This document shows, in pieces, positions 2,131-47,315 of a DNA stretch of 47,315 nucleotides (positions are counted from its first letter, which is position 1; every line of letters begins with the position of its first letter). Origin of the DNA: a virus. The notes below the pieces were generated by a model. That model ran no database searches and was not told the origin of the DNA. It saw only the letters and a list, made by a program, of their open reading frames with translations. Location: positions 1 to 47,315 of the IMG/VR virus record IMGVR_UViG_3300020578_000131. One strand, given 5' to 3'. The position numbers and the translations under genes were made by a program.

Positions 2131-3107
2131 TAGATGTCAATCTTTAATTTAAAAGTAAAGTCTCTATTTTCTGTTTTTTTAATTGGCTTAGCTAGTTTCG
2201 CTATACCTATTAAATTACCGTTATCATCATAAATACCAATTTTAGAAATATAAGTGTGCTTTTCTAAACTACCAGTATAATTTTCATATGGATATCTTAC
2301 AGTATTTTTGATCTCATTATAAGCAAATTCGCTATAAGAATTATCTGTTGTGATAGGTTGATTAACTCTAAGTTGTCCTGCCTTTATATATGTTGGATTA
2401 TTAGAATGATTTAATTCACCTTTTTCCGCATGAACCATCATTGTTATAGTGTTTATATAATTAACACCTTCAAAGTTTAAATCAAAGCTGGACGTGGTGG
2501 TATAATTTGGTTTTTGATGTGCCCCGGCTCCCCAATTAGTCCATCTAGCATAATCTATAGAAGCTGTTGGGGTGTAAATAAGTGTTTCTTGGAAGTTATT
2601 ATCTAGTTTCCATGAACCGGTCAATAATAAGAATCCTTCGTTATATAAAACAACACCGGCAACTTGATTTAATCCTTGAGAACCAGTTGTTTGTATCAAC
2701 TCACCATTCTTGTTTATGTCTTGAAGTTTGGCGACAAGTGTTCCGGAAACATAATAAGAAAGTTCTACTGTTCCTCTGTCAATTGAAGAACCGTAATAAA
2801 TAGAAGGAATTGAAACTAAATTTATAGCTTGAGTAGCCTTATTTCCATATTCAGTATTAAAACCGTAGTGTTGGCTTAAATAAAGATAGTTGTTTAGGGT
2901 ATTCTTAAGAGCAAATATTCGCTTTCTATCTGCCGGTGAAGAATTTTGCGGATAATAATCAAAATAAAGTGAAGAAGTGTATGGATATTTACCAAGCACT
3001 TCTTCACCATATTGTGATGCAGCAAAGTCATTAGGACTTACAGATTTAAAACTTTCTAATGAACTACCTTTTGGTATAAAAGGATAATAATTTTTTCTGT
3101 CTGCCAT
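2130..3107 (-). CDS. virion structural protein (325 aa), paralogue of 12402-13532
   Basis: This 325-residue protein shares the C-terminal pattern of the 376-residue protein at 12402-13532 (ISKIGIYDDNGNLIGIAKLA, then KPIKKT) and the HSNNPTYIKAGQLRV motif near residues 234-248. GTVELSYYVSGTLVAKLQD lies near residues 108-126. There is no clear Shine-Dalgarno before the ATG in the 35-base gap after the S74 fibre gene, which is unusual here. The stop shares one base with the next gene. It is probably a tail or fibre-associated structural protein; its function is not proven. Confidence 0.72.
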   Translation of the reverse strand: MADRKNYYPFIPKGSSLESFKSVSPNDFAASQYGEEVLGKYPYTSSLYFDYYPQNSSPADRKRIFALKNTLNNYLYLSQHYGFNTEYGNKATQAINLVSIPSIYYGSSIDRGTVELSYYVSGTLVAKLQDINKNGELIQTTGSQGLNQVAGVVLYNEGFLLLTGSWKLDNNFQETLIYTPTASIDYARWTNWGAGAHQKPNYTTTSSFDLNFEGVNYINTITMMVHAEKGELNHSNNPTYIKAGQLRVNQPITTDNSYSEFAYNEIKNTVRYPYENYTGSLEKHTYISKIGIYDDNGNLIGIAKLAKPIKKTENRDFTFKLKIDI

Positions 3108-3142
3108 GGTAATAGTAATTATATCACGGAGAGAAAAAGGGA

Positions 3143-6706: not shown

Positions 6707-6709
6707 ATA

Positions 6710-30597: not shown

Positions 30598-32402
30598 TAG
30601 ATAATAGTACCTTTTATATCGCTATTTGGAAATTTTAATTCCATAACTACATTTAATGGAACATTAATATATCTTCCATCGGATGAAGTATTACTTTTAA
30701 AGTTAAATTGCGAATCAGAATAAATGCCACCTATTTTTTCTTCTATAATAACAGAAGTAACATCTATTAAACCATCTACCTTTTTAAGAGAATCATATAC
30801 TTTAGTTATTGTAAATGCTTCGCCAAAATCAGCAGTATGGGCAAAATCTGTTTTTAACTGTTCTATCGCATCAGTCAAAATATCATACTTAGATCTATCA
30901 TTTGAACCAACAGCAGTAAAATTAATACCATAATTAATTACTTTGCCATCTAATATATCTATAGAGTCAGTAATCATTTTGTTACGCATAAGCCAATTTT
31001 TTATATTATTTTTTATTGTTTTATTAGATGTTGTTAAATAACCATCTGAATCTTCGCAAAGTACATAAATATTTAAGTTTCTTTTTAAAGACTTATTATC
31101 TCTTTTTACGGTAACTCGTTTTATAGAGCCAAATTTATTTGGCATATTATAAACTAATGCTCTATAATCTGTTTCAGTGACTGCTCTGCTTTGAGCGGAA
31201 AAAGAACTTTCTATTCTTTTTTTCAATTCTTGAGAATTAATAGTAGTTGTATCTCCGATTATAGGAGTTTCATTAGTTATTTCTAAGCTTGATTTAACTA
31301 AATTTAAGCTAACATTAGATAACGAATCTTCATTATTAAATTCAAATATTCCACTTGTTACTCTATTAATAGTATTAGAAGCATAATTTACATTAGAAGA
31401 TTGGTTATTATATCTATAAGTTACTATTAAATCTGTGTTAGAAGGTGCAATCCCCATTTTATCACTATTTAAAAGCTTATATGGATCAAAACTATCAGAA
31501 GAAATATAATCTTTACCATAAATATTTAATACAACTTCCGTTGGTTCAGCCATCATATTATCGGGATCTTTAATTACAACATCGGAACTAGCGCCGAATT
31601 GTAAAGTGGTAGTTCTTAAATTTCTATCAACAACAAATCTTCTAGGAACCATGAACGGTTTTAAAATTTCTCTAGCTAAGACTGAATCAGTTGAATCTCT
31701 GTTAGTTATAGATTTATAAATAATATTTTGTGATAAATTTTCTACTTCATAATATTGATTGCCTTCAAGATCATAAACAGATAATATTTCTATAATATCA
31801 TTTTGATTTAAAGAGACATTTAAATATCTTTTATAATCACCAACCGATATTCTTTCAGAAGCTATAAGACCAGAAATAATAGTGCCATAAGATTTAATAG
31901 CATAAAATAATGGAAATCCAGTATTTGGATCAGAAACACTAACTCTAATTTCATTATTAGGATTATCAAATCTAACATCTTCATTTAATATAAAATTAGC
32001 TCCTCCTCTGGTACTAAAAGCACTACCTTTTTTTAAAATTGGTGCATAATCTAAATTTGGCCCTAAACCATTAGTACCAGCAGGAACCGATATATAAAAA
32101 GAAGCCATTCCGGTAGAAGAATTGGTACTAGAAAACTTAAATCCAGCTTGTCTTCCAAGTTTAATGATGTTATCGTACTCAGAAGCAGTATCTACAAAAG
32201 TCTCATTTGCTTGATAATCTAAATAAAAAGAAAGTATGTCTCCTACATATGAGACTGTATCAATCATTAAAGAGCCAAACGACGCTTCATTAAAATCCTT
32301 ATATACATCAGAATAATAACGTTTAGCGTGCTGTATTAAATCATCTTTAATATTTTGATAATTTCTACTAGTATAATTTATAGGAACTATTTTTTTAGAC
32401 AT
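30597..32402 (-). CDS. baseplate wedge protein gp6-like (baseplate J family)
   Basis: This 601-residue protein corresponds to T4 gp6, which forms the dimeric wedge core of contractile-tail baseplates. N-terminal signatures are INYTSRNYQNIKDDL and SFGSLMIDTVSYVGDILSFY with LDYQANETFVDTAS (about residues 8-75), and FSAQSRAVTETDYRALVYN near 395-415 is the typical J-family ATxxDY region. AAGGAAAA precedes the ATG. Its stop shares one base with the start of the next gene, indicating coupling. The gp25 gene directly upstream supports the assignment. Length and motifs appear complete. Confidence 0.92.
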   Translation of the reverse strand: MSKKIVPINYTSRNYQNIKDDLIQHAKRYYSDVYKDFNEASFGSLMIDTVSYVGDILSFYLDYQANETFVDTASEYDNIIKLGRQAGFKFSSTNSSTGMASFYISVPAGTNGLGPNLDYAPILKKGSAFSTRGGANFILNEDVRFDNPNNEIRVSVSDPNTGFPLFYAIKSYGTIISGLIASERISVGDYKRYLNVSLNQNDIIEILSVYDLEGNQYYEVENLSQNIIYKSITNRDSTDSVLAREILKPFMVPRRFVVDRNLRTTTLQFGASSDVVIKDPDNMMAEPTEVVLNIYGKDYISSDSFDPYKLLNSDKMGIAPSNTDLIVTYRYNNQSSNVNYASNTINRVTSGIFEFNNEDSLSNVSLNLVKSSLEITNETPIIGDTTTINSQELKKRIESSFSAQSRAVTETDYRALVYNMPNKFGSIKRVTVKRDNKSLKRNLNIYVLCEDSDGYLTTSNKTIKNNIKNWLMRNKMITDSIDILDGKVINYGINFTAVGSNDRSKYDILTDAIEQLKTDFAHTADFGEAFTITKVYDSLKKVDGLIDVTSVIIEEKIGGIYSDSQFNFKSNTSSDGRYINVPLNVVMELKFPNSDIKGTII

Positions 32403-32432: not shown

Positions 32433-32810
32433 CTAAGAATCTATATTTAGTTCATCATTTATTCTTAAAGAAGGAACATGATATTTTATATTTATGAACA
32501 AGACGTTCTCATCATTACTATTAGGAGGAGATATATTTATTTCTTTAATAGATATAAATTTTAAATATTTGCCAACCTGCTCTGTTATTCTAGACTGTAT
32601 TTTTTCTCTTACCTCTAGAGTGTCATTTTCAAAAATATATCTTTTAATTCCAACGCCAAAGTCGGAATCCATTATTCTTTCCCCCGGATTTGTTAATATT
32701 AACATTTTTAAATTTTGTCTTACGGAATCTATTATTTTTTTATTTAATGAATAAGCGCCATCTTCATCAAAATCATAAGATAGTGGTAATCTAGGTGAAT
32801 ATCCTCTCAT
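32433..32810 (-). CDS. baseplate wedge protein gp25-like
   Basis: This 125-residue protein matches the T4 gp25 / phage W-type family, a small wedge component that helps attach the baseplate to sheath and tube. The conserved core LTNPGERIMDSDFGVGIKRY is visible near residues 39-58, followed by IFEN and helices (VREKIQSRITEQVGKYL). Length is typical. TAGGAAAA upstream provides the ribosome-binding site and overlaps the stop of the previous giant gene. The next gene is gp6-like after 30 bases, matching the gp25-gp6 pairing seen in contractile-tail phages. Confidence 0.92.
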   Translation of the reverse strand: MRGYSPRLPLSYDFDEDGAYSLNKKIIDSVRQNLKMLILTNPGERIMDSDFGVGIKRYIFENDTLEVREKIQSRITEQVGKYLKFISIKEINISPPNSNDENVLFINIKYHVPSLRINDELNIDS

Positions 32811-32821
32811 TTTTAATTTTC

Positions 32822-35800
32822 CTATAGTTGTTGCGGATAGAAGGGGCTTCCTTTAAAGCCATTTAATTGAATTTCTACCCAATCACGGAATAATAGTACT
32901 TGTTGATTGATTTGTAATTGATTTTTAGAATAATCTTCATAAGCAGAGTTTATAGCTTGTTTCATAGCTTCGTAGCTATGTGGCTTATTCATAAAGTACC
33001 ATATGGAAGAAAAATAAGTATCTACTGCTTCTCTTACATCATTTGGATCTTCAATTAATGGGAATTCTAACACTTCTGCTAATCTTAAAACCAATGCGTT
33101 TTGACGGTCTAATGTAATAGGCATAGATTCTAATTTTCTAAATACATTAGAAAGATAATTTCTAATATTTTCTCTAGCTAGTTCAATTCCTACATTATAA
33201 TCTTTATCATAAACTGTATCTACTTTTTTTGTATTAAAAGCTTCTATAATAAAGTTTTTTAACTTACTTTCTTCTAATTTATCTTTTAATACATAATCAA
33301 TTGTTTTAGTTTCTTCATTTTCTATATATTCAACCGTTAATGTTTCATTAAATAACAAGTTATATGCCTGATTTACTGCTTTATCAAATAATTCTTTTTT
33401 TGCTATTCCAAGCGCTTGTTCATAGTCGGTTGCAAATACATCGTCTTGAACCATTGTGGAATAGAAAGGAGGAGTTTTAATAATATCTAAATCTTTGTCA
33501 TATTCTCCAAAAGAAATAGGCTGTTTAGATTCATAAAAATTATCTTGGTTATAAATATCATCACAATTTATTTCTTCTTTTCCTAAATTATTTACCCATT
33601 CATCAGCCATATCAGCCAAACCGGGTCCATCTTCATACCAAGCTAAGGTTGCAAAATAGGTAGTAGTTAACAATGGATTTATAAATGGCATTGGACTTGT
33701 TACGGGAGTTGGTAATGTTCCAAGTGGTATTGAAACGGCAGGTATAATAGCTGATGTTAAATCTGGTTTAAGAGATTTTGCTGTTTTATAAACTGTACTA
33801 ATCAACGCAACGTTTGGTTCTGAACTTTCAACTATTCCTTTTAGAATCTTAATTGGCGTTGTTAATAATGCTTTAATCAAGAAGCTAGCTATTAGCTTTA
33901 ATGGATTCATATTTTCTGTTGATTGAGCATCATTTGGATTAGAGGCTATTATTTGACCATTTGATTGTATTATTTTACAAGTACTTATAATATCTCTTTT
34001 TGTATCTTTAAAAGCATTAGATACCTGCCTTCTGGTACTAGTGCATAAAACATCTAACATAAATATATAATTTAATGTTTGAGTGGTGGGAAATATATAT
34101 TTAAATAAGAAATCATATTCTACAGTAGATATAAACTCCAACATTATTTGTAAATTATTATTTATATTTGCTCTTTCATAGATTTTTTGTCTTATATAAT
34201 CAGTTTTTGTGATAAATTCATTTTTTTCTTGATCAAAATATTTGTATGTACATTTAAAATTAAGATATACGGCATTAGCATCAGCAACTATTATTCCATA
34301 GTTTGATGAATCTTCAAAAACGTTCTTTATATTAATTAATGTCAAATTTTCTTTAGCTAAATATTCATTTGTATCTTTATGAATTCTTTTAGCTAATTTA
34401 GGAAGAACATAGTTTTTTATTTCACCCTCAACAAAATCTCTAAATAATTCTGTCTTTTTTAATATTTCATTAGTAATATTTTCTTCTGGATTGGAAGCTT
34501 TGTATTGTTTTAAAAGGAAACTAGTTAATATATTGAAGAATATATTATCCATTCCTCTCATTTCTGATTCAACCATCCTAGCCATAAAAGAAATAAACAT
34601 CTTATCATCTCTTAATGACTGAGGATCATAAACTCCAAATACATGTATCCCTCTAAGAACAATATCATGCAAAAATATTCTTGCCGCTAAATGTAAGCCA
34701 CCATTAAGAAATATTTTTTGTGTTTCTGTTGTTTCTATATCTTCTAATTCAGAAACATTTATTGGTATTTTTCCAACCGTTCTATCATCAATTATTTTTT
34801 CTATACAAACATTTTTTGACTTTTCATCTAAAATTTGTTTTTTGATTGAATCAACTTCTAAATAATGAGGTCTAACATTACATGCTTTTTGTTCTGCGGT
34901 CTGAGGAACAACTAACTTTAAATACTGTGTGTATGGCTGTCCTGTACCACGAACTGTATTGGTTATATAATCAGGAGACAAATACTCTCTAATAAACATA
35001 AATTTGTTTTTTTCACTTAAAATATTATTTTTTATTGAATCATACAATCTTTTATTAATGTCTTCATAAATTTGTTCTGAAAATAATTCGTATGAAATTA
35101 TTTCTCTTCCATCTTGTGAAGTAAGGCCGAACTTATTTATTTTATCAGTAATAAATTTATGTAAAAGTTTATGTTTATTTAAATTACCGAGATCTTGTAC
35201 ATTAAGACCGGAAGGATTTTTTATATAAGATAATATGTCGTCTGACACTTTATTAATTTCAGTGTTTTTTATAAAAGTTTTTGAGTTTTTTGTTATTTGT
35301 AATCTGTGAATATCATACAGTTTTTCATCTTGAAAAGATTTAATTTCAGAACCATTTGGTAATGTAATTTTGTCTAAACCTGTTTCATAAACAATGTTAA
35401 AATCAGGATAATTAACTTTAGTTTTTAAAATAACATTATAAAATCCTTTAACATCGTCATAGGCTATTTTAGCTTTATCGTATAAATCTCTTAATGTAGC
35501 AAATTCATTATAATTAGAATTCCATAAGATAGAATTTGATTCATTTATTTCAGTAGAAAAATTCATTAATTGATTTAATGAAGTAATAGTGGCCGTATTA
35601 TAAAACATTTCTTCACAAATAACTAAATATACTGCGGCTCCTTCTTCCGCAGCAAAGAACGCATTTGCTTCATTTATATTAGATACTCCAAGTACTTTAT
35701 AAGCATTTTTTAGTTTTATTTTCAATTCTTCAGTATCAGTAACGTTGTTTCTCAAATATAAATCAGCTAAATTTAATAAGTTTAAAATTGGACCTAAACT

Positions 35801-38800
35801 ATTTAAAACGTCTTTAGCGCTAACGCTATCTGGCTCTAGCGTATCTGCTGTAAAATCGACAATTTCAATAACCATTTTTTTTAAAACTTGACTCCAAACA
35901 GCTTGTAATAAATTTCCTAATAGTTTTTCTGCATTGCTTATTTTATCTCTTAATTCTTTTTCTATGAAATTAATATCAAATTTTTGCTGCGTAGTTCCAT
36001 TCAACGAACCAGAAAAAATAATATGATTATTTTCATATAAAGTTTTAGAATCAGTCAATGAATCACTTAATAATGTTTGGAGCGCTGAATTATTACCGTC
36101 AAGGGCAAGTCTAAACATAAGACCCGGATATTTAGTATTTTTATAACCATCCCAACCAGTCTTATCCTCAAATTTGGCAGTAGCAAGTAAACCTTCTGAT
36201 ATTTTTGGATCTAATTTAATATCAGGAACTGTTTCTATTCTGCCGCTGCCACTATTAAATTGAAAAAAATTAACAGAATTAGAGTTGTATTCTGTATAAG
36301 TTGTTTTATACCAATCCCGTGCCTCTCTATCAAAATTATTATAAACAGTCTTAAATAGTGTATTTGCTAAATTTAAATATTCTTGCTGAGATGGTGATAA
36401 ACTAGCACCATTAGGAAATATTTTGCATGCTATATCTGGTACTTTAGAAAAATCAAATGGATTTTCAGAATCTAATAATTTTAGTATGTCTTCTAATGCT
36501 CTTGCTTCATCTTCTCTTATAGAAGCTAAAGCTTGATCAATTAATTCTGGGCTCAAGCCTTTATCCTGTAAAATCTGCCTTCTTAAATTTTCTACTTTTC
36601 CATCATCACATAAAATATTTGGCCCTGATACTGTTTCTTCGGGAGAAATATTATCATTACATATACTAAGATCAATTCCATTACCAATATTTCTAAAAAA
36701 TTCTGCTATTTGTTGTCTTGTGCCAAATAATTCAGAATATGGAGAGCCATATTTTCTTTTTATAAGAGATATTATTACTTGATATGCTTCATCATTAACA
36801 GTTTCTCCCTTATATAAAGAGCAAATTTCTTTTGTAGTCATACAAGTTGTTATATCTTCTATAATATTTTTTAAAGTATTTTTAGCACCAATTTTATCTT
36901 CTTCAGTAACAGGACCGGGATTATTTTTAATAGAGTCATAAACGTCATTTAAATAATCATTTAAGGCAGGATCAGTGATATTGGCATTAGGTTCAAAAGG
37001 ATTATTACCAGTTGGGAAATTAGGTGGTTGATTTAAGTCTCTGGTACATGCTTTGGCAGCTGCTTCTAGTGCTTTTTTAATTCCTAAAGATATTAGATCA
37101 TTTATAATTTGTATAAAGGCGTTTTCTAATTCTTGTATTAAAGATTGATTAGGGTTATAAGCTCTTAAAACAGGTAATTGAAACCCATTAATTACCTTTA
37201 AGCCATTTTTTAAATATGGATTACAAATAGTAGAAAGGAATATACTTTCAATAAACTTTCTAGCTTCTTTGTATTTAGACATTAAGGCCATTACAATATT
37301 TGGAGGCAACGAAGCAGATAGACATTGTGCAGAAAGACCTAAGAATTTAGCCCAATCTAATGCTCTAGCAACACGTATAAAAGCAGCTAATTTTTGTTTG
37401 TTTGTTTTATTCGGTAATTTATCGATACCGAATAAAATTCTCATATTTTTATCTTTAATAACATCTTTAGCAGTTAAAGATTTAGTAAATAAATCTCCTT
37501 CATTTTGCTTCTTTTTCTTTTCATAGGCTTTTCTTAATTTTTTCCATTTAGCTATTTCTTGCGGAGTACGTACAGAGGTTAAATCACTAATTCTTTGTAT
37601 TGTATCAACACTACAATTCACAAGGTCAACTGGTTTAGGATATACATTTGTTATTACTGGATAGTGTTTTTCAGTTAAAAACTTTTTAATTTCATCTTCT
37701 GGATTGCCGCCTAATAAGCCTATAGCTCCAACGGCTGCTCCAACGGCTGCGGTACCTATCAAGCCCCCGCCAAGAATAGCAGCACCAGCCAATAATGGTG
37801 AAGTATCGGCTATATTTTGTGCAGCTGCCTTAAAGGCATCGTAAGAGTCTTTTTCAGGATCAAAAACAACTATATAATTAGCTGTAGTTTGATTTGAAAC
37901 ATATTCATTTTTTAAATAAGACAACAAACCAACAGATAAAGAAAGCTTTTCTTTATCGGAATAATATTTGATTGCCTTTATTTTATGTTCTTTTTTATCA
38001 ACTACAATATCTAAAGAAAAGTTCCATTTTAGACTTGGTGTAGAAAAAATGTCAGGTCTTTCTTCTTGTACAAATTTTGGATGATTTTTTTGTAGAAAAA
38101 GATTTGTTTCTTCTACAAAGCCTCTAACATTTTTTGCTTCAATAGAAAAATTTCTAAAAGCATCTGGCTCCATAACCCATTGCCTAGTTATGAAATAGAT
38201 TTCATAATGCTCTAATATTTGAATTAATTTATCGAAAAAAACTTTATATTCATCATAATCCTTAAACTTACGTATAAAATACCTCTCTGGATCTGGATCA
38301 GGCGGTTTAGGAACTGGCTCTTTTTCTTTTCCCGGTTGTATTTTTTTTATGTCTGGATTGTCCGCATATAAATATGCTTTTGGTAATACAACAAATACTC
38401 TTAAGGTAGAGCAAGGTCTTGGATCTATATACCATTTTTCAGATGTAATAAATTGATAATAATTATTTAATAGTTTATTTGATAAATCATCATTTAATTC
38501 AAAACCAACTTTTTCAAAAGTTAACTTTAAACATTTTTTTCTTGCTTCTTCCATCAAAGACCATAATTGGTCTTCGCCGTTGATAGAAACTATATCAGGA
38601 AACTCACAATGTACCGCCCAAGAACCTAAATAGTTGTCTTCATAAGGTTCATCAATAGGTTGAGATTTCCAATCTATTAAGGCAGAATTTCTATTTGGCT
38701 GATACTCATCTTTTAAGGAAATTGGAGCAAAATCAGGAACATCCTCTAATGGTTCTAAATACTGGGTAGAAACATATCCTATCTCATTGGACGATAATTT

Positions 38801-39016
38801 TATTTTAGAATAAGACTCTTTAGTATTTTCAATCAAAGCAACAATAGTTTCTAATACTAAAACTTGTTCATTATCTTGCAAAGAGCGTAAGTTAGGGCCA
38901 AGTATATTTGGTTCATCTAGTAAAAAATCTTTTTCTTTTACAAACCAAACAGGTTGTATAACTTTATGAGTTGGAAAAACTCTTAATGGAGATTTTATAT
39001 TTTTGTAATTGGACAT
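32822..39016 (-). CDS. very large baseplate/tail protein (2064 aa)
   Basis: This is one of two giant virion proteins in the window. Residues about 10-92 look like a small SH3-like barrel (LRVFPTHKVIQPVWFVKE to SNEIGYVSTQYLEPL). A Gly/Ala-rich hydrophobic stretch of about 30 residues lies near 405-437 (LLAGAAILGGGLIGTAAVG), directly before a charged region. The remainder is long, mixed helical sequence with scattered Cys residues and no recognisable enzyme motif. It is followed after 11 bases by gp25, whose ribosome-binding site touches its stop. By position it may be a hub or wedge component, or do part of the job of tape-measure or gp7-type proteins. I do not recognise a named family, so the function is inferred from context only. 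Confidence 0.72.
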   Translation of the reverse strand: MSNYKNIKSPLRVFPTHKVIQPVWFVKEKDFLLDEPNILGPNLRSLQDNEQVLVLETIVALIENTKESYSKIKLSSNEIGYVSTQYLEPLEDVPDFAPISLKDEYQPNRNSALIDWKSQPIDEPYEDNYLGSWAVHCEFPDIVSINGEDQLWSLMEEARKKCLKLTFEKVGFELNDDLSNKLLNNYYQFITSEKWYIDPRPCSTLRVFVVLPKAYLYADNPDIKKIQPGKEKEPVPKPPDPDPERYFIRKFKDYDEYKVFFDKLIQILEHYEIYFITRQWVMEPDAFRNFSIEAKNVRGFVEETNLFLQKNHPKFVQEERPDIFSTPSLKWNFSLDIVVDKKEHKIKAIKYYSDKEKLSLSVGLLSYLKNEYVSNQTTANYIVVFDPEKDSYDAFKAAAQNIADTSPLLAGAAILGGGLIGTAAVGAAVGAIGLLGGNPEDEIKKFLTEKHYPVITNVYPKPVDLVNCSVDTIQRISDLTSVRTPQEIAKWKKLRKAYEKKKKQNEGDLFTKSLTAKDVIKDKNMRILFGIDKLPNKTNKQKLAAFIRVARALDWAKFLGLSAQCLSASLPPNIVMALMSKYKEARKFIESIFLSTICNPYLKNGLKVINGFQLPVLRAYNPNQSLIQELENAFIQIINDLISLGIKKALEAAAKACTRDLNQPPNFPTGNNPFEPNANITDPALNDYLNDVYDSIKNNPGPVTEEDKIGAKNTLKNIIEDITTCMTTKEICSLYKGETVNDEAYQVIISLIKRKYGSPYSELFGTRQQIAEFFRNIGNGIDLSICNDNISPEETVSGPNILCDDGKVENLRRQILQDKGLSPELIDQALASIREDEARALEDILKLLDSENPFDFSKVPDIACKIFPNGASLSPSQQEYLNLANTLFKTVYNNFDREARDWYKTTYTEYNSNSVNFFQFNSGSGRIETVPDIKLDPKISEGLLATAKFEDKTGWDGYKNTKYPGLMFRLALDGNNSALQTLLSDSLTDSKTLYENNHIIFSGSLNGTTQQKFDINFIEKELRDKISNAEKLLGNLLQAVWSQVLKKMVIEIVDFTADTLEPDSVSAKDVLNSLGPILNLLNLADLYLRNNVTDTEELKIKLKNAYKVLGVSNINEANAFFAAEEGAAVYLVICEEMFYNTATITSLNQLMNFSTEINESNSILWNSNYNEFATLRDLYDKAKIAYDDVKGFYNVILKTKVNYPDFNIVYETGLDKITLPNGSEIKSFQDEKLYDIHRLQITKNSKTFIKNTEINKVSDDILSYIKNPSGLNVQDLGNLNKHKLLHKFITDKINKFGLTSQDGREIISYELFSEQIYEDINKRLYDSIKNNILSEKNKFMFIREYLSPDYITNTVRGTGQPYTQYLKLVVPQTAEQKACNVRPHYLEVDSIKKQILDEKSKNVCIEKIIDDRTVGKIPINVSELEDIETTETQKIFLNGGLHLAARIFLHDIVLRGIHVFGVYDPQSLRDDKMFISFMARMVESEMRGMDNIFFNILTSFLLKQYKASNPEENITNEILKKTELFRDFVEGEIKNYVLPKLAKRIHKDTNEYLAKENLTLINIKNVFEDSSNYGIIVADANAVYLNFKCTYKYFDQEKNEFITKTDYIRQKIYERANINNNLQIMLEFISTVEYDFLFKYIFPTTQTLNYIFMLDVLCTSTRRQVSNAFKDTKRDIISTCKIIQSNGQIIASNPNDAQSTENMNPLKLIASFLIKALLTTPIKILKGIVESSEPNVALISTVYKTAKSLKPDLTSAIIPAVSIPLGTLPTPVTSPMPFINPLLTTTYFATLAWYEDGPGLADMADEWVNNLGKEEINCDDIYNQDNFYESKQPISFGEYDKDLDIIKTPPFYSTMVQDDVFATDYEQALGIAKKELFDKAVNQAYNLLFNETLTVEYIENEETKTIDYVLKDKLEESKLKNFIIEAFNTKKVDTVYDKDYNVGIELARENIRNYLSNVFRKLESMPITLDRQNALVLRLAEVLEFPLIEDPNDVREAVDTYFSSIWYFMNKPHSYEAMKQAINSAYEDYSKNQLQINQQVLLFRDWVEIQLNGFKGSPFYPQQL

Positions 39017-39020
39017 AATT

Positions 39021-39923
39021 TTAATTTAAATAGTGATAAAAACTGTTTATATATTTAGTACCTGTATCTCTAATGTATTTTGTTCTCCAAGCTTCAAGAT
39101 TTCCCGTATTAAGATTTAGACCTTGCTTAGTTAAATTCAACATTTGAATAGCTACTGATTTGTGTTCTATGCAAACATTTGGATCTAATGAAGTTTCTAA
39201 AGCATGATAATTTTCAAAATGTGTATGATCTGAAATTGCTTCATTGAATCTTGCTTGTGATTCATAAAAATTAGTAACCACTCCACAAAGCTCTTGAATA
39301 AAATCTGCTAATTCTTCAAAAGCGTCTAATAAATTTTGTCCTTTTGGAATTGGTTGCATATCTTTATCGTCATTATTGGCTATTAATTGTACACCAAATC
39401 CGGTATATGCCTCATCTCCATTGGATAGTTTAGAATCTGTATTTGTAACTAATTTCATCGATTCTCTGGCTATTATTCTTACGGCATCTGCTTTAATAGC
39501 TATAGCCGATTGAGCGTTAGAATTGCCGGTTATGCCTTGACATATACTATAATTCTCGTCTATATCAGATTTTTGACTTATATATATTCTTGCTGCATCG
39601 GCACCAGTATTTGGGTTTACCGGACCACGAACCGCAGGAGTAGACCTAGCATCTAAAGCAGATAATCTGCCAACAACTATATCTATCGCTCCAGCACGAA
39701 GATGGCCCATTCCTCCGTACCCGCTATCCATACCTCCCGGTCTATCTCTTCCTAAAACAATCCAAGTATTGTTTTGTCCTTGCCAAACATCTTCCGAATC
39801 GGTTTTATTAAAAGAAAAGTTATTTGTAGGATCATATAATACGGAATTTTTTATGCCCAATTCGGCATTGGGATCATCCGCATTACACATATTATCATTT
39901 GTAATTTCGTCTATAGTACCCAT
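39021..39923 (-). CDS. baseplate spike-like virion protein
   Basis: This 300-residue structural protein has a Gly-rich section near residues 60-85 (GRDRPGGMDSGYGGMGHLRAG). Repetitive beta-type sequence follows (AARIYISQKSDID, AIAIKADAVRIIARESMKLV, about 110-165). Such strands resemble beta-helical or OB-type spike proteins at the tail tip. A helical part with a DHTHFENYHA histidine cluster (near residues 235-245) follows, which could bind metal. It sits ten bases after the two lysins and four bases before the 2064-residue gene, as expected for a hub or spike component. No clear Shine-Dalgarno precedes its ATG. The virion role is likely; the exact T4 equivalent is not certain. Confidence 0.68.
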   Translation of the reverse strand: MGTIDEITNDNMCNADDPNAELGIKNSVLYDPTNNFSFNKTDSEDVWQGQNNTWIVLGRDRPGGMDSGYGGMGHLRAGAIDIVVGRLSALDARSTPAVRGPVNPNTGADAARIYISQKSDIDENYSICQGITGNSNAQSAIAIKADAVRIIARESMKLVTNTDSKLSNGDEAYTGFGVQLIANNDDKDMQPIPKGQNLLDAFEELADFIQELCGVVTNFYESQARFNEAISDHTHFENYHALETSLDPNVCIEHKSVAIQMLNLTKQGLNLNTGNLEAWRTKYIRDTGTKYINSFYHYLN

Positions 39924-39933
39924 ATTTTTTTAA

Positions 39934-41139
39934 TTAGCATATAGGAGTTGCAAAAATATAATTTGATAATTCATTTGTTGTTCGAACCCCATTAACATTC
40001 CGTACGCCTGCTTGAGAAATCATAATTCCAAGAGTCTCATTATAAGGGTCTTTATCAGGTCTGACAATAATAACATGTCCTGTACCATCTGATCTTACAA
40101 TCGTTCCCACAACAAAAGAACCACTATTTGCCACTTCTTGTGCCTCTTTCGGATTAGTAATTATTTTCCAACCAAAATTTTTTATATTATTTGCATCTCT
40201 AAACCAAGTTCCAGTGTAATAGCCACTTAATTCTACGACTGTTGAGTTTCCTTGACCATAAAATTCTTTAAAACCACCGTTATTTACAGGTTCATTTCTC
40301 TTTAGTGTTTTTCCTTTTAAGGTCTGATCTTTAACGGATACCCAATGAGGATAATTTAATACTTTCATTGCACAAGCGACATCCCAAGCAAAAATATTAC
40401 ACCATGTATTACCCGCTTTTTTATATCTCGGATTTACATCTACGCTAAATTGATTAATAACTTCTTCATATTTTTTTGGATCTTTATTACATTTATCTAT
40501 TATTATTTTTGGTTTAGGAAAATTATTATCTTGAGGATCCATAGAAACTTCTTTATCTGGTGGTGGAGAAGGAGGACCGGGAGGAAGTGGTTTTATTTTT
40601 TGTCCCTGTGGAGTTTGCGGAGAAGGAGGAGTAGAGGGATTATTGGGAGCGACGGAAACTATTTTAGTGTTAGAAAATGAATATTCTATTTTTTTATCTT
40701 TATAATTTTCTTGTGTTATCCAAACAACGTTTCCTAAAGCCAACTGTCCAACCGTGTCAGGATTGGCAGAAAAATCATCTAAACAGTTTATAACTCGTTT
40801 ATCAGTAGGACTATTGTATGTATTAGGAATACTATATATTTGGCCGGGGCCATTTAAAATACATACCTTATATTTTTTTGGTTTAAAATCGGGTTTTTCG
40901 TATGACTCTAATTCTACTCTTTGAGAGTATTCAAAATTTCTTGGTTCATCTTCTACTCTTACTATAACTCCTTGCCAACCTTTTATGTCTTTAAAAGAAT
41001 CATGAGTTTGTCTATCTATGCCGGTTAAGGTTATTACATCACCAACGGTGGCATCTTGAACATCAATAGGAGATTTTCTTGGTTCGCTTAATTCATTCGT
41101 TAAAACAGGAATTTTATCTAAATTTGCTGGTGTGGTCAT
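39934..41139 (-). CDS. paralogous baseplate/spike lysin with probable cysteine hydrolase domain
   Basis: The first 165 residues closely match the preceding protein (DKIPVLTNELSEPRKSPID, VGDVITLTGIDRQTHDSF), so the pair arose by duplication. A Pro-rich linker follows (PLPPGPPSPPP, about 165-210). The C-terminal part is unrelated to M23. It has GNTWCNIFAWDV, with a candidate catalytic Cys near residue 246, and GTGHVIIVRPD, with a candidate His near 353. This order resembles papain-like NlpC/P60 or CHAP cell-wall hydrolases, and I recall similar CNIF-WDV motifs in phage lysins. The exact class (amidase or endopeptidase) is not clear. AGGAA precedes the ATG, and 11 bases separate it from the M23 gene. 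Expected to act in the virion tip. Confidence 0.76.
   Translation of the reverse strand: MTTPANLDKIPVLTNELSEPRKSPIDVQDATVGDVITLTGIDRQTHDSFKDIKGWQGVIVRVEDEPRNFEYSQRVELESYEKPDFKPKKYKVCILNGPGQIYSIPNTYNSPTDKRVINCLDDFSANPDTVGQLALGNVVWITQENYKDKKIEYSFSNTKIVSVAPNNPSTPPSPQTPQGQKIKPLPPGPPSPPPDKEVSMDPQDNNFPKPKIIIDKCNKDPKKYEEVINQFSVDVNPRYKKAGNTWCNIFAWDVACAMKVLNYPHWVSVKDQTLKGKTLKRNEPVNNGGFKEFYGQGNSTVVELSGYYTGTWFRDANNIKNFGWKIITNPKEAQEVANSGSFVVGTIVRSDGTGHVIIVRPDKDPYNETLGIMISQAGVRNVNGVRTTNELSNYIFATPIC
41025..41082 (-). repeat. 58-bp perfect direct repeat, copy in the cysteine-hydrolase gene
   Basis: This stretch is identical base for base to 42137-42194. It encodes part of the shared N-terminal domain (PRKSPIDVQDATVGDVITL). 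Third-codon positions are conserved too, which points to recent duplication or gene conversion between the two paralogues. Confidence 0.9.
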
Positions 41140-41150
41140 AAAATTAATTC

Positions 41151-42251
41151 CTACGTTGGGGTAAATACTCCATGTGAATAAATAATTTCTTCAGGAAAAA
41201 TGTCTTTAATTTTTTTAACATCATATGGATTTACTAATTTTCCATTTGCTTTCATTTGAAAATGTAAATGTGGTCCTGTAGATCCTCCAGTATTTCCTAC
41301 TAATCCTAATAAATTTCCCTTATTAACTTTTTGCCCAGTTTTTACAGTTAATTTACTCATATGACAATGAGTAATTTTATACTCTATATTATCATCTTTT
41401 ACTAAAAGATTAACAAATATACCACAATTATTATCATTTGATTCGTGAGCAATACTAACTTTTCCATCGGCAACAGCATATATAGGTGTTCCAATCGGAG
41501 CAGCTATATCTATACCTGCATGATCACCCATTACAGAAGGATTTGTTGGATTCGGTCTTAACCCAACTAAAGATGTTATCTTATAAGTGCCGTTTAATGG
41601 AGGAGTCCATTTTTTATCTTTATTGTCTGGTAAATCTTCTTCTCTTTGTGCCTCTGGAATTAGTGTAACATCCATAGCATTTAATATTGGGTTATTAATT
41701 GGTGGAGAGGGTTTATTAAACCCAACATTCGGCTGTGGCGTAGATGGTGGAGAATTTGGCGAAACAGAAACATTTATAGTTTTAGAATTAGAATATTGGA
41801 TTACCTTGTCTTTATAATTCTCTTGAGCTATCCAAACCTTGCTACCAACAGTTAAAATGCCATTATATTTAGGATTTAGGGAGTAATCATCTAAACTATC
41901 AATAATACGCTTATCTTCTGGAGTTAAATCATATGTTTCAGGCTTGGTGTTTACATATGGACCGTCCAGTAAACAAACCTTATATCTTATTGGAGTTATA
42001 TTATTCTTATAAAGGTTTTCCATCTCCACTCTTTGAGAATATTCAAAATTTCTTGGTTCTTTTATTACCCTAACCACAACTCCTAGCCATTTTCTAGAAT
42101 CCTTAAACGAATCATGGGTTTGTCTATCGATTCCTATTAAGGTTATTACATCACCAACGGTGGCATCTTGAACATCAATAGGAGATTTTCTTGGCTCACT
42201 CAACTCATTTGTTAAAACCGGAATTTTATCTATATTAGTTGGTGTATACAT
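41151..42251 (-). CDS. baseplate/spike lysin with M23 metallopeptidase domain
   Basis: This 366-residue protein probably acts at the tail tip and cuts peptidoglycan cross-links during DNA entry. Residues 1-165 form a domain also found in the next gene (NELSEPRKSPIDVQDATVG near the start, NFEYSQRVE). A Pro/Ser/Asn-rich linker spans about 165-200. The C-terminal M23 (LytM-type) domain, about 215-355, has HAGID (first zinc His and Asp, near 242-246), HCHMS (near 294) and GPHLHFQ (HxH, near 323-328), so the expected zinc and catalytic ligands are all present. There is no signal peptide, which fits a virion enzyme. GAGGAT precedes the ATG. The hydrolase fold is firm; placement in the baseplate hub is inferred from the following spike, gp25 and gp6 genes. 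Confidence 0.88.
   Translation of the reverse strand: MYTPTNIDKIPVLTNELSEPRKSPIDVQDATVGDVITLIGIDRQTHDSFKDSRKWLGVVVRVIKEPRNFEYSQRVEMENLYKNNITPIRYKVCLLDGPYVNTKPETYDLTPEDKRIIDSLDDYSLNPKYNGILTVGSKVWIAQENYKDKVIQYSNSKTINVSVSPNSPPSTPQPNVGFNKPSPPINNPILNAMDVTLIPEAQREEDLPDNKDKKWTPPLNGTYKITSLVGLRPNPTNPSVMGDHAGIDIAAPIGTPIYAVADGKVSIAHESNDNNCGIFVNLLVKDDNIEYKITHCHMSKLTVKTGQKVNKGNLLGLVGNTGGSTGPHLHFQMKANGKLVNPYDVKKIKDIFPEEIIYSHGVFTPT
42137..42194 (-). repeat. 58-bp perfect direct repeat, copy in the M23 gene
   Basis: This is the second copy of the repeat at 41025-41082, in the same direction and reading frame relation, 1112 bases away. It lies in codons about 20-38 of the M23 lysin gene. The flanking sequence is similar but not identical. 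Confidence 0.9.
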
Positions 42252-42252
42252 G

Positions 42253-42552
42253 TTAATCCTCGCGGATTAAGTCAAAAAGAGAATCCCTTTCTTTTTTACT
42301 CATTCCCTCTTTACCGCCTTCTTGACGTTGCACTATTGCTGCTACTTTAACTAGCTGTTCGTTTGAACGTTGCAAGGTTTCAAGATACATAGCGGCAATT
42401 TCACCAAAGTTTTTATGAGTATACTTATCCTCTGAATGTTTATTCATATGATCAACTAAGTCTAATAGAAGCTTGCTTGTTACTGCGCGATCATTTTGAA
42501 TGTTGTGAGTGGCCTCTTCTATATATTCTTCTAAAGTTTTATTAGTACTCAT
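42253..42552 (-). CDS. small hypothetical protein (99 aa)
   Basis: The product is a 99-residue, mostly helical, charged protein (LEEYIEEATHNIQ at the start; SKKERDSLFDLIRED at the end). There are no cysteines, signal peptide or membrane segment. The ATG overlaps the sigma factor stop by 11 bases and has a GAGGG-type site upstream. The next gene, the M23 lysin, starts one base after its stop. The family is not recognised. Position between the sigma factor and the baseplate genes suggests a late gene, but no function can be assigned. Confidence 0.75.
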   Translation of the reverse strand: MSTNKTLEEYIEEATHNIQNDRAVTSKLLLDLVDHMNKHSEDKYTHKNFGEIAAMYLETLQRSNEQLVKVAAIVQRQEGGKEGMSKKERDSLFDLIRED

Positions 42553-43423
42553 CTCTGTAAACCCTCGGTTTTATATGAGAAATTTGACCATTTTGCCATT
42601 TTTTACGAAAATCTTCGTATTTATAGCGAAACTTTTTAAGATTATTTACAACTTGCTTAGTATTTAATCCTGTTATTTCTCTCATATATAGATAAATAGC
42701 CTTTTTATTGAAAATTTCTATATTTTCACTTTCTTTAAAAAGCATAATAATGGCTTTATATACCTTTATCTCATTATATTTTAAACGTTTATCAAACCAG
42801 CTATGCATTTCTGCTTCCAAAGCTGACCAAAATTCTTCTTTTTCTCTGTTGTAAAGATAAGAATCTTCGTACACAAGTTCTTCTTCTTGTGGAGAATCCT
42901 TTATATCTTCTATGTAAATCTCTTTTTTATTGTTATTTTTCTTTACTTTATGAATAAACCAATTTTTTGTAATAACAGAAAAATAAGAAAATGCTTTAGA
43001 ACCACGGGATGTATCATATTTGTCTAATATGGTAGTTAAAAAAGTTTTACATTCGTTTTTAAGATCATCGATATTAGGTAAATTATTGAATTTATAGGTA
43101 TAAACTATCTTTTCAACCATTTCGTTAAATGCGGGCTGAATGAGTTTTATATATAATTCTGTTTTACGATTATTGTCCAATATAGAAGCATATTCTAAAA
43201 TAGCATCTTCATGAATCTTAGTAAAATACTGATTTTTGATCTCTATTGATTTAGTAACCACCGTTGGAGAAATAGTGGTACTTTGTAAAGAAGACCTTTT
43301 ATAGCCCCGTTTAGAGCGTTTAACCGCCAATTGGGCCGATAGCTGCTCATCTTTTGGGGATCTCTTCTTGGGAGGCTTTTTTGTTTTCTTCGTTTGTTTG
43401 ATTGGTTTCTTGAGTTTCTTCAT
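42542..43423 (-). CDS. late-transcription sigma factor (T4 gp55-like)
   Basis: This is probably the phage sigma-like factor that directs host RNA polymerase to late promoters. The key region near residues 125-150 reads DTSRGSKAFSYFSVITKNWF. This resembles sigma region 2 of gp55 homologues, in which polymerase contact and promoter melting residues lie. A helical C-terminal part follows (REITGLNTKQVVNNLKKF). The ATG at 43423 is preferred over a GTG at 43456: it has GGAAGG five bases upstream and gives 293 residues. The first 25 residues hold 12 lysines and one arginine and are probably disordered. The gene overlaps its upstream neighbour by 77 bases and the next gene by 11. The family call is by motif; the late-promoter role is inferred. 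Confidence 0.78.
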   Translation of the reverse strand: MKKLKKPIKQTKKTKKPPKKRSPKDEQLSAQLAVKRSKRGYKRSSLQSTTISPTVVTKSIEIKNQYFTKIHEDAILEYASILDNNRKTELYIKLIQPAFNEMVEKIVYTYKFNNLPNIDDLKNECKTFLTTILDKYDTSRGSKAFSYFSVITKNWFIHKVKKNNNKKEIYIEDIKDSPQEEELVYEDSYLYNREKEEFWSALEAEMHSWFDKRLKYNEIKVYKAIIMLFKESENIEIFNKKAIYLYMREITGLNTKQVVNNLKKFRYKYEDFRKKWQNGQISHIKPRVYRDEY

Positions 43424-43697
43424 CGATGCCTTCCAAAACGGTCTTTTTATATACACCGCAAGCTTGTATAACTAATTTAGTATTAGCTACGGCAGAATCA
43501 ATAGCTGGTTCGCCATAATAATTTTCTAAACTAGCTAGTGGTTCTAGTAAGTTGCCATATTCTGTAAATAATTGCTGCATTTCATCTACGTTTTTAACAG
43601 CATAACTGAGGTTATTTACTAATTTACGGGTATACCAAACAAGCACACCATTAACGGCAATAGAAATAACTAATAATAGCGACAATATAAGTGTCAT
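43347..43697 (-). CDS. membrane-anchored small protein, acidic C-terminus
   Basis: The 116-residue product starts with a strongly hydrophobic stretch (about residues 2-22, LILSLLLVISIAVNGVLVWY) followed by TRK. This fits an N-terminal membrane anchor with a cytoplasmic C-terminus rather than a cleaved signal peptide. The middle part is probably helical, and the last 25 residues are polar with eight acidic residues. The gene lies directly after the FmdB-type gene (one base between). Its last 77 bases overlap the start of the sigma factor gene in another frame. I do not recognise a named family, although marine T4-like phages often carry similar small anchored proteins. Confidence 0.7.
   Translation of the reverse strand: MTLILSLLLVISIAVNGVLVWYTRKLVNNLSYAVKNVDEMQQLFTEYGNLLEPLASLENYYGEPAIDSAVANTKLVIQACGVYKKTVLEGIDEETQETNQTNEENKKASQEEIPKR
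43429..43434 (-). promoter_or_regulatory. Shine-Dalgarno deciding the sigma factor start
   Basis: On the minus strand this reads GGAAGG, five bases before the ATG at 43423. The alternative upstream GTG at 43456 has no comparable site. The signal lies inside the coding sequence of the membrane-anchored gene, so initiation is internal to that gene. Confidence 0.65.
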
Positions 43698-44188: not shown

Positions 44189-45289
44189 TTAAGAATTTAG
44201 TTCTTTTTTTACAAGCATTAAAGAAGAAGCTATGACCTGATGCATGTCATAATATTTATATTCGGATAATCTACCACCAAAAATAATATTTTTATAAGTT
44301 TTAGACTTTTCTAAATACTTTTTATAAGTATTATTATTTATATCATCATTAATTGGATAATATGGCTCTATTCCCGGCTTCCATTCTTGAGAGAATTCTT
44401 TACTAACGATAGTAATACCATTTATTTTTTTGTGAGGTAAAAAATGTTTATGCTCACAAATGCGCGTATATGGTATCTCTTCATTTGTATAATTTATCAA
44501 TGCGTTACCCTGATAATCATCTAGCGCGTGAACTTCGTTTTCAAATCTTACACTTCGATATTGCAATGAACCGAATTGGTAATCAAAAAATTGATCTATA
44601 CACCCTGTGAACACTACTTTCTTAGCCAGTGAATTTAATTGAATACGATTATTAAAATAGTCTGTGTTTAGCTGAACGTCGATACCTTTCAATAGATTAT
44701 TGAATACAGTGTGATACCCGTTTTGCGGAATTCCGGAAAAGATGTCGTCTGTTGAAAAATCTCTAAAATTATAACGGATTGGGATTCTTTTAATTATGCT
44801 AATTGGTAATTCTTTTGGATCTCTACCCCATTGCTTTTTTGTATATCCACGTATGAAAGTTTCATATATCTCCTGACCAACTATTGATAAAACATACTCT
44901 TCAAGATTTTGTGGATTGGATATATTTACTTTTTTTTGTTCTATAAGAATCTTAGCTTGTTCTGGTGTGGTAACTCCCCAAAGCTGGTTGAATGTTAGGA
45001 GATTGATTGGGAAAGAATAAAGCTTATTATTATAATAAACCTTACCTTGATTAAAATAAGGGATAAAATTATCAAAACGATTTACGTAATCCCATAAAGG
45101 CTTATTATTTGTATGAAATATATGTGGTCCATACTTATGAACGTCTATTCCTAAATCTTTATAGCTATAGGCATTTCCACCTATATGGTTACGTCTGTCT
45201 ATTACAAGACATTTTTTGCCGCTATCGGTAGCTTCCCTCGCAAAAACAGAGCCAAAAAAACCACCGCCTACAATAAGATAATCATACAT
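44189..45289 (-). CDS. glf: UDP-galactopyranose mutase
   Basis: This FAD-dependent mutase interconverts UDP-galactopyranose and UDP-galactofuranose, the donor of Galf residues in O-antigens, capsules and other glycans. The 366-residue length matches bacterial Glf. The FAD-binding motif is at the N-terminus (VGGGFFGSVFARE, residues 7-19), followed by DRRNHIGGNAYSY and YGPHIFHTNNKPLWDYV. The C-terminal GRLSEYKYYDMHQVI motif is the second conserved FAD-site region. No frameshift or loss is seen, so it looks functional. No clear Shine-Dalgarno precedes the ATG; it lies one base after the DUF3431-like gene and is probably translationally coupled. It is the last gene of the sugar cassette, 48 bases before the next start. 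Confidence 0.96.
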   Translation of the reverse strand: MYDYLIVGGGFFGSVFAREATDSGKKCLVIDRRNHIGGNAYSYKDLGIDVHKYGPHIFHTNNKPLWDYVNRFDNFIPYFNQGKVYYNNKLYSFPINLLTFNQLWGVTTPEQAKILIEQKKVNISNPQNLEEYVLSIVGQEIYETFIRGYTKKQWGRDPKELPISIIKRIPIRYNFRDFSTDDIFSGIPQNGYHTVFNNLLKGIDVQLNTDYFNNRIQLNSLAKKVVFTGCIDQFFDYQFGSLQYRSVRFENEVHALDDYQGNALINYTNEEIPYTRICEHKHFLPHKKINGITIVSKEFSQEWKPGIEPYYPINDDINNNTYKKYLEKSKTYKNIIFGGRLSEYKYYDMHQVIASSLMLVKKELNS

Positions 45290-45290
45290 A

Positions 45291-45896
45291 TTATGTTAAA
45301 TTAGAGTCTAAAATATATTTCCAAGTTCTTTCAAAAAAATATCCACAAGCACCATTTCCATGTGGTTCGCGCCATGTAGTATTTTTTGATAACTCTAAAC
45401 ATTTTAGATAAAAGTCTTTACTTCTTTTTCTAATATTTATTTTTGACGCCATAAAAATAGCACCGGGATAAAATTCAAATTGCTGTTGTGAAGAATTGGG
45501 AAATATTTCTTTTATTCCCGGTCTTAAATCTAAACCGGGATGGTGTGGATAACCATCTATATCACTCCATAAACTTGGAGAGCCAAAATAATTTACAAAC
45601 GATTTGAAATCATATTCATCGTTATTGTAAGTCATTAATTTGACAGCTTCTAATAATTCTGGGGCGTGGTCAAATGGGTTGGCTTGTGTGAAGATAGTAT
45701 ATTCGGCTAAAGAGTCGTAATTAGTATAAATATGATAAAGATATGTGTGCGCCTCTCTACCAGCTTCATTAGGAAGGAAGTTTTCTTCATCAAAAAATTT
45801 GTTATAAACAGTAATTTTTAAGTTATCTCTATTAGAGAGATTATTTAACCAATCAACATTTTCTTTATACCTTGCAACTACCATTTCATATTTCAT
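45291..45896 (-). CDS. DUF3431-like protein
   Basis: This 201-residue protein opens with MVVARYKENVDWLNNL and contains YTIFTQANPFDHAPE and PGAIFMASKINIRKRSKDFY. These match my recollection of the DUF3431 family, which has no established function but often sits among glycan-related genes. Its ATG overlaps the stop of the RmlD-like gene by one base (TAATG), and it is followed after one base by UDP-galactopyranose mutase, so it belongs to the sugar cassette. There is no signal peptide or membrane segment, so a cytoplasmic role is expected. Sugar transfer or modification is only an inference from the neighbours. Confidence 0.72.
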   Translation of the reverse strand: MKYEMVVARYKENVDWLNNLSNRDNLKITVYNKFFDEENFLPNEAGREAHTYLYHIYTNYDSLAEYTIFTQANPFDHAPELLEAVKLMTYNNDEYDFKSFVNYFGSPSLWSDIDGYPHHPGLDLRPGIKEIFPNSSQQQFEFYPGAIFMASKINIRKRSKDFYLKCLELSKNTTWREPHGNGACGYFFERTWKYILDSNLT

Positions 45897-46612
45897 TATA
45901 AATCACCGTATGTGTCTTGTTCGTTAAAGGAAGAATCTTCAATTACTTTAAAAGTAAAATTGTTTTTAGATTCTTTTTTTACATTTGGTTTTCTAATAAT
46001 CGCAATATCATATATACTTTTTCTATTACTTCCAGCATGATAAATGCCCGGTTTATAATCATGTATTATGCTGACAATTTTAGGACCAATTATATCAAGA
46101 TAATCTTTTGAAGAGTATTGATCGTAAAACGCTATTTCATATGGAAAATCATATTCAAAAAAAGCAGTACGTATTACAGTGCATTTAGAATAAGTCCTAC
46201 AGCATAATTCGGCTGCTGTTTTAGTTTTTGCATATTTATTAATTGGATTTATAGAATCAGAAGGACTATAATAGCCCTTTTTACCATCAAATACCGCATC
46301 TGTTGAAATATAGATAAAATCTATGTGTTTATCAACAACGTAATTTAATAAATTTATTGTTCCTAAAACATTAATATTAATTGCTTTAAGGTATTCTTTT
46401 TCCGCCTTTTTAACATCAGTGTAGGCGGCTGAATGGACTATTACATCTGGCTTGTTTAAATTTAAATAATTTAATACGTTCTCCGGGTTGGTTATATCCA
46501 ATTCTTTACTACTAGGAGCTAATGTAGAGTACAATTCTTGATTTATGTTTTTAATCAAGAACTTTCCTAAACGACCTGAGCCGCCAGTTAATAATAGTTT
46601 TTTTAAAACCAT
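45896..46612 (-). CDS. RmlD-like NAD(P)-dependent sugar-nucleotide reductase/epimerase
   Basis: This is an extended short-chain dehydrogenase of the RmlD (dTDP-4-dehydrorhamnose reductase) type. Its 238 residues contain the nucleotide-binding motif TGGSGRLGK (about residues 9-17), SAAYTDVKKAE (about 61-71), STDAVFDG (about 101-108) and a YAKTK catalytic Tyr/Lys motif (about 127-131). It is shorter than typical RmlD (near 290-300 residues), and the C-terminal half looks reduced. It follows the RmlB-type gene with a 10-base overlap, which supports a joint role in making a dTDP-deoxysugar. No RmlA or RmlC is visible; they may lie upstream or come from the host. The fold assignment is secure, but the exact reaction is not, and a generic NAD-dependent epimerase remains possible. 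Confidence 0.82.
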   Translation of the reverse strand: MVLKKLLLTGGSGRLGKFLIKNINQELYSTLAPSSKELDITNPENVLNYLNLNKPDVIVHSAAYTDVKKAEKEYLKAININVLGTINLLNYVVDKHIDFIYISTDAVFDGKKGYYSPSDSINPINKYAKTKTAAELCCRTYSKCTVIRTAFFEYDFPYEIAFYDQYSSKDYLDIIGPKIVSIIHDYKPGIYHAGSNRKSIYDIAIIRKPNVKKESKNNFTFKVIEDSSFNEQDTYGDL

Positions 46613-47315
46613 TTGTACAATCCTTGTTCATGTCTTGGCGTCCAGCCCAAAGCCCTAATCTTTGAAGAATCTACGGCGTATCTTAAATCTTGTCCCCAAC
46701 GATTTTCTACAAACTTAAGATATGAATCGGTTTTTTCCATCCACTGTATCACTTGTTTAGCTACTTGTAAATTAGTTAGATAGTTTTCAGCTGCAATATT
46801 GTAGATGTCGTTTTTTACACCCTTTTCTAACAATAACATATAAGCAGATACGTTATCTTTAACATAAGTCCAATCTCTAACATAACTTCCGTCGCCGTGA
46901 ATTGGAATCTGCTTGTTGTTATTAATACAATTTATAGATTTAGGAATAAGCTTTTCTTCGAATTGTCTTTCGCCATAATTGTTACTTGTACGTGTAATGA
47001 TATAGTTTAGACCATAAGTTCTATGATAGGACATTACTAGCATTTCAGCAGCAGCTTTAGTAGCTGAATAAGGATTACTTGGCTTAAGTTTATCTTGTTC
47101 TGTAAATTTCCCATCTAGCCTATCACCATATACTTCATCAGTACTGATATGAAAAAATAATGGTCTATCGTATTCTGGTTTCCCACGAACCAATTCAAGC
47201 AAATTATGTGTTCCTAGTATATTGCTTTTTACGAATACGTCAGAACTTTTAATTGAGTTATCAACATGGCTCTCAGCAGCAAAGTTTATTATTATATCAC
47301 AAGTTGGAATATGTG
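46603..47315 (-). CDS. rmlB: dTDP-glucose 4,6-dehydratase, C-terminal part (5' end outside window)
   Basis: This enzyme converts dTDP-glucose to dTDP-4-keto-6-deoxyglucose, the entry step to dTDP-rhamnose and related sugars. The reading frame is open to the window edge, so 236 C-terminal residues are visible and the N-terminal NAD-binding glycine motif is missing. A TTG at 47202 is internal, because family sequence continues upstream of it (FAAESHVDNSI). Visible short-chain dehydrogenase signatures are STDEVYGD (the Thr-Asp-Glu catalytic region), YSATKAAAE (YxxxK), RTSNNYGERQ and GDGSYVRDWTYVKD. The C-terminus stops soon after GWTPRHEQGL, somewhat shorter than in many bacterial homologues. 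The stop overlaps the start of the downstream RmlD-like gene by 10 bases, so the two are probably co-translated. The family assignment is firm; the exact sugar product is inferred. Confidence 0.93.
   Translation of the reverse strand, partial: HIPTCDIIINFAAESHVDNSIKSSDVFVKSNILGTHNLLELVRGKPEYDRPLFFHISTDEVYGDRLDGKFTEQDKLKPSNPYSATKAAAEMLVMSYHRTYGLNYIITRTSNNYGERQFEEKLIPKSINCINNNKQIPIHGDGSYVRDWTYVKDNVSAYMLLLEKGVKNDIYNIAAENYLTNLQVAKQVIQWMEKTDSYLKFVENRWGQDLRYAVDSSKIRALGWTPRHEQGLYKWF

Follow-up and report, generated by a model that had tools for sequence, protein, structure and literature searches.

A tandem pair of OB-type adaptor genes carrying two different predicted wall hydrolases at a probable hub-spike locus of a distant T4-like phage

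The closest described counterpart of the locus analyzed here is gp5 of phage T4, in which gp5* (an OB fold plus lysozyme) and gp5C (a β-helix) are made as one chain that is cut between the lysozyme and the helix and kept as a (gp27-gp5*-gp5C)3 complex (PMC3004832). A second gp5-like spike platform with C-terminal enzymes is found in the specialised VgrG proteins of the type VI secretion system (T6SS), which occur as paralogues and for which mixed trimers have been described as possible (PMC10433429). VgrG differs, however, in that a gp27-like part precedes the gp5-like part on the same chain, and it is no phage hub. Two catalytic activities at a tail tip have been reported for phi29 gp13 and for tail lysins of enterococcal phages (PMC9863714, PMC10194240), yet in these proteins both activities reside on one chain and no hub adaptor is duplicated. 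According to a review, tail lysins of phages infecting Gram-negative hosts have a single catalytic domain, whereas those of phages infecting Gram-positive hosts often have two (PMC9863714). Our searches of the open-access literature turned up no report of gp5-type genes that are duplicated and carry different lysins.

The window, i.e., the whole stretch of DNA that was analyzed, is one complete viral record of 47,315 bases and a single metagenomic contig. The features of the window named below lie on the minus strand. In the direction of transcription, a gene for a gp55-like late sigma factor (42542-43456; PHROG 234, E 0.0036; homologues in relatives) is followed by a 99-aa open reading frame (ORF; 42253-42552), two neighboring genes for proteins of 366 aa (41151-42251) and 401 aa (39934-41139), a gene for a 300-aa spike-like protein (39021-39923), a gene for a 2064-aa protein, and genes for baseplate wedge proteins that are gp25-like (32433-32810; Pfam GPW_gp25 1.3e-13) and gp6-like (30597-32402; PHROG 6, 6e-17). 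We refer to the position between the 99-aa ORF and the spike-like gene, with the sigma gene as its upstream border, as the slot. A preliminary description had proposed that two adjacent genes share an N-terminal domain and a Pro-rich linker but end in different enzymes, and this architecture was borne out: both ORFs are intact and separated by 11 nt, the N-termini are 66% identical across 175 residues (BLASTP E 5e-74, which rules out chance resemblance), and in both proteins a Pro-rich linker follows, within which the similarity ends. The term near-identical, applied there to about 165 residues, was too strong, as identity amounts to 85% (amino acids) and 83% (nucleotides) in codons 1-75 and to 52% and 60%, respectively, in codons 76-175. 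The C-terminal domain of the 366-aa protein (residues 224-345; 41217-41582) is clearly assigned to the M23 metallopeptidases by Pfam (3.1e-27). All three motifs noted earlier, HAGID (244), HCH (295), and HLH (328), are present, and with them the HxxxD (H244/D248) and HxH (HLH 328) zinc motifs of M23 enzymes. At the C-terminus of the 401-aa protein lies a cysteine domain, here termed WCN (39937-40527), that contains both expected motifs, TWCNIFAWDV with C247 and GTGHVIIV with H355.

The shared N-terminal domain (residues 1-165; 41757-42251 in the 366-aa and 40645-41139 in the 401-aa protein) is best read, with moderate confidence, as a gp5-type OB-fold hub adaptor. Aligned in hhalign with a profile of nine gp5 OB domains, a profile of 20 adaptors scored 33.9 (E 6.9e-5, probability 63), and 198 column-shuffled controls scored at most 21.6. 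The gp5 OB profile was required for this match: alignments to T4 gp5 alone or to the spike of phage Mel-JY01 were not significant, and searches of Pfam and PHROG gave no gp5 match. An OB-type profile detects the domain in both the 366-aa (6e-27) and the 401-aa protein (4e-29). AF2 models the domain as a small β-barrel that starts near residue 55, leaving no room ahead for a gp27-like fusion of the kind seen in VgrG, and such a fusion is absent from both paralogues. Fold matches of the model in the PDB are weak (E 0.02 or worse) and include a P1 baseplate chain as well as RecO and RsgA, which we take to contain OB domains. A receptor-binding or attachment role was considered for the shared domain and set aside, since a hub adaptor fits better. 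Of the earlier proposal of a duplicated attachment domain with swapped enzymes, the duplication and the two different hydrolases are supported, with a spike-like gene as neighbor within a baseplate cluster, whereas the attachment role gives way to the profile match with gp5 OB domains.

Both proteins resemble T4 gp5 in combining a probable N-terminal OB-type domain, a linker, and a predicted peptidoglycan hydrolase, assigned by Pfam in the M23 copy and by family evidence in the WCN copy, and their genes likewise lie near baseplate wedge genes and have a spike-like partner. They differ in that the enzymes are of the M23 or cysteine type instead of a T4 lysozyme, in that there are two adaptor genes rather than one, and in that the spike part is a separate gene rather than a section of the same precursor. 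A triple β-helix is absent from the C-termini of both paralogues. Because they end after the enzyme domain and the spike gene is separate, we describe them as working like gp5 and do not class them as gp5 proper. The 300-aa protein would be the gp5C counterpart, judged by its position, its general character, and an HxH motif (H233, H235) that is invariant among the homologues found in all slot loci; homology to gp5C was not detected, and the AF2 model of the protein is too poor for use. Microcystis phage Mel-JY01 and Flavobacterium phage immuto were rejected as direct counterparts because their spike gene seems to bear its own N-terminal domain; the lysin is separate or not evident in these phages.

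Since a profile of the pair's own N-termini found no relatives, these were reached via the spike gene. Searches from the 300-aa protein returned 26 viral contigs and then two overlapping sets of at least 80. The analysis covered 142 loci, 112 of them non-identical and 101 with a visible sigma gene, i.e., with a slot bounded on both sides. Locus counts depend on the contigs returned by pattern scans, and all figures apply to the matches listed. The order of sigma gene, ORF of about 100 aa, slot, and homologue of the 300-aa protein is retained in nearly all of these uncultured phages, and relatives also share the placement next to gp25/gp6. An iterated profile identified the adaptor domain in 95 of 112 slot-region ORFs and gave no hit among reversed decoys. 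Behind the adaptor, the C-terminal parts are very different between relatives: Pfam recognizes VanY/M15, Amidase_2, CHAP, M23, Phage_lysozyme, GH19, M74, Muramidase, and GH46 domains, with an additional weak match to Phage_lysozyme2. The locus behaves as a natural module-exchange site, in which a conserved adaptor socket is followed by about a dozen hydrolase families. Several slot proteins (L062:6465-7001, L022:9278-9850, and others in L019, L100, L116, and L145) consist of hardly anything beyond the adaptor domain and have no recognized enzyme; these near-bare adaptors suggest that the hydrolase is dispensable or located elsewhere in some members.

Enzyme-class profiles, home-made from the Pfam-identified domains and run over the 142 loci, detected two or more hydrolase classes in at least 22 of the 101 bounded slots, a lower bound given that 29 slots have no assigned class. 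The premise that tail tips usually carry one lysin type is therefore inapplicable to this phage group. Three routes lead to several enzymes per slot, namely fusion within one chain (e.g., amidase plus M15 in L010), a second gene without an adaptor (L069, L081, L105, L143, L157, and L167), and duplication of the adaptor, as in the window and in locus L171 (IMGVR_UViG_3300025168_000047) of a distant relative. In the latter, three tandem adaptor genes with 35-42% mutual identity lie in front of the spike gene (2185-6803), and their C-terminal parts are SGNH-like (by our reading of the sequence), a muramidase, and an amidase. Three adaptors would supply each position of a threefold hub with one. 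Among the matches listed, 94 of the 101 slots contain a single adaptor gene and five contain none; the window has two such genes and L171 has three. Though the module is single-copy in most relatives, neither gene of the window looks inactive.

The duplication, the intact motifs, the kept gene order, the profile similarity to gp5 OB domains, and the enzyme swapping among relatives lead us to regard the locus as probably the module for hub and spike in a distant T4-like phage with a contractile tail, bearing two hydrolases on gp5*-like adaptors. The virion location, trimer composition, catalysis, and target bonds that we infer from these observations would be as follows. The single gp5 precursor of T4 would here be split into a gp5*-like gene for OB adaptor, linker, and hydrolase and a gp5C-like spike gene. 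The former is duplicated in tandem, one copy bearing a predicted M23 endopeptidase and the other a predicted cysteine peptidase or amidase of the papain-like type. Through their OB domains, both proteins would dock in a threefold hub above the spike, and once the tail contracts, the tethered enzymes would open the peptidoglycan at the site of entry with two bond specificities. Competition of the two copies for three positions would yield either mixed trimers or homotrimers of both kinds.

The enzyme variety among relatives, together with the three adaptors of L171, has the look of an interchangeable kit for entry, whose tools may be combined within a single virus particle. We tentatively extend this to the idea that some T4-like phages build a gp5*-type hub that is hetero-oligomeric, with paralogous adaptors setting different wall enzymes round one spike; there may be two enzyme kinds in the window and three (esterase-like, muramidase, and amidase) in L171. 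Should the two paralogues occupy one hub together, its three positions would hold a mixture of proteins whose bond specificities complement each other. Such a hub would parallel, in a phage, the mixed spikes of specialised VgrG proteins, and the adaptor would act as a standard socket for interchangeable enzymes, the unnamed cysteine-lysin family included. Each hub might instead take one paralogue only, as two homotrimer types or with one gene expressed, in which case the pair would diversify the virions or hedge host range instead of arming one tip with two enzymes. We find this doubtful. Two VgrG paralogues of a Serratia T6SS were judged incapable of mixed trimers (PMC4924876), and the adaptors of the window differ by half across residues 76-175, but their first 75 residues are 85% identical, and the presence of two or more enzyme classes in at least 22 of the 101 slots, often on one chain, favors joint use.

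The assignment of the second enzyme rests on the WCN family. Searched with one to four sequences, the cysteine domain had no match in Pfam, PHROGs, or the PDB. The 401-aa protein has no close relative among 50,697 phage records, and among viral contigs its sole relative was a free-standing WCN protein. Known members of the family are free-standing proteins of two other phages (L001 and MW202637, unannotated there) and bacterial proteins, found first in an Ignavibacteriales genome bin and, with this bin counted, in 13 of 395 genomes of that phylum. In an alignment of 15 rows, the Cys, a Gly-His pair, and a few W/G/P positions are invariant, and the catalytic-type order of Cys then His, as in papain-like wall hydrolases, is conserved in all 15 members. 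Among the bacterial proteins, one combines GH19, SH3b, and WCN, while others combine SH3b and WCN. The family profile of 15 sequences weakly matched eight sequences of Tse1 (Tse1/Tae1, a papain-like peptidoglycan amidase) at E about 0.001 over the block with the conserved His, although the match omits the WCN Cys motif and the protein context differs. An AF2 model of the domain was unreliable (pLDDT below 60). Given the GH19/SH3b fusions, the conserved Cys/His, and the Tse1 profile match, WCN is predicted to be a papain-like peptidoglycan peptidase or amidase and appears to represent an undescribed family of wall hydrolases that occurs in phages and bacteria. The papain-like hydrolase of the preliminary description is thus supported by fusions and profile, but not by a Pfam or PHROG family; a match to a non-hydrolase family, which would speak against two enzymes, was not found. 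The bacterial GH19-SH3b-WCN protein (L039:496-2052) is a suitable entry point for describing the family.

The free-standing occurrence of WCN in two other phages bears on whether one paralogue, most likely the cysteine one, serves mainly in lysis, as an endolysin, or has an accessory role away from the hub. In L001, the WCN gene lies directly behind a short ORF with a hydrophobic start that we read as holin-like. We nevertheless consider such a role improbable for the window, because the 401-aa protein retains the hub adaptor and sits in a late structural cluster, and because an adaptor-WCN protein is the only slot protein in L063 and L168.

In a FastTree phylogeny, in which some forks are weak, the two adaptors of the window are sisters (100/100 support) within a group that also holds proteins with M15 (L004, L006, L007, and L012), GH19 (L060), and WCN (L063) enzymes. 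This suggests a tandem duplication specific to the lineage, whose copies bear different enzymes. The L171 adaptors fall into a different group, which indicates that multi-copy adaptors arose at least twice, i.e., that the socket was tandemly duplicated in two separate clades. Within the pair, a single exact match of 58 nt links the 366-aa gene (42137-42194) and the 401-aa gene (41025-41082). Among codons for the same residue, synonymous changes are rarer in the first part (16/62 vs 26/50; Fisher p 0.006), consistent with a mosaic origin or with gene conversion of part of the gene. An assembly artefact that joined the different slot genes of two strains is very improbable, for although the window is one metagenomic contig with an identical 58-nt stretch, this match is internal to both genes and unable to produce the tandem order, the sequences immediately preceding the two start codons show no relationship, and L171 has multi-copy adaptors independently.

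Several further features of the neighborhood were observed. In nearly all relatives, the ORF of about 100 aa, represented by the 99-aa ORF of the window, comes directly after the gene for the gp55-like sigma factor; judged by position, it could encode a gp33-like co-activator. A 116-aa ORF with a hydrophobic N-terminus (43347-43697) shares about 110 nt with the start of the sigma ORF, and a comparable overlap occurs in L004 and L006. For the 2064-aa protein between spike and gp25 (32822-39016), a PHROG search gave no match; its N-terminus is SH3-like, and around residue 420 it contains a hydrophobic stretch rich in Gly and Ala. The region 44189-47313, upstream of the hub cluster, contains nucleotide-sugar/glycan-type genes (by eye, UDP-galactopyranose mutase-like and sugar epimerase/dehydratase-like), as do several relatives. 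Extra ORFs lie between the sigma gene and the slot in L013 (6991-7617), L076 (3281-4057), and L073 (631-1275); by eye, those of L013 and L076 resemble homing endonucleases. Enzymes of this kind could promote the exchange or conversion of genes in the slot. In T4, segC lies near gene 5.
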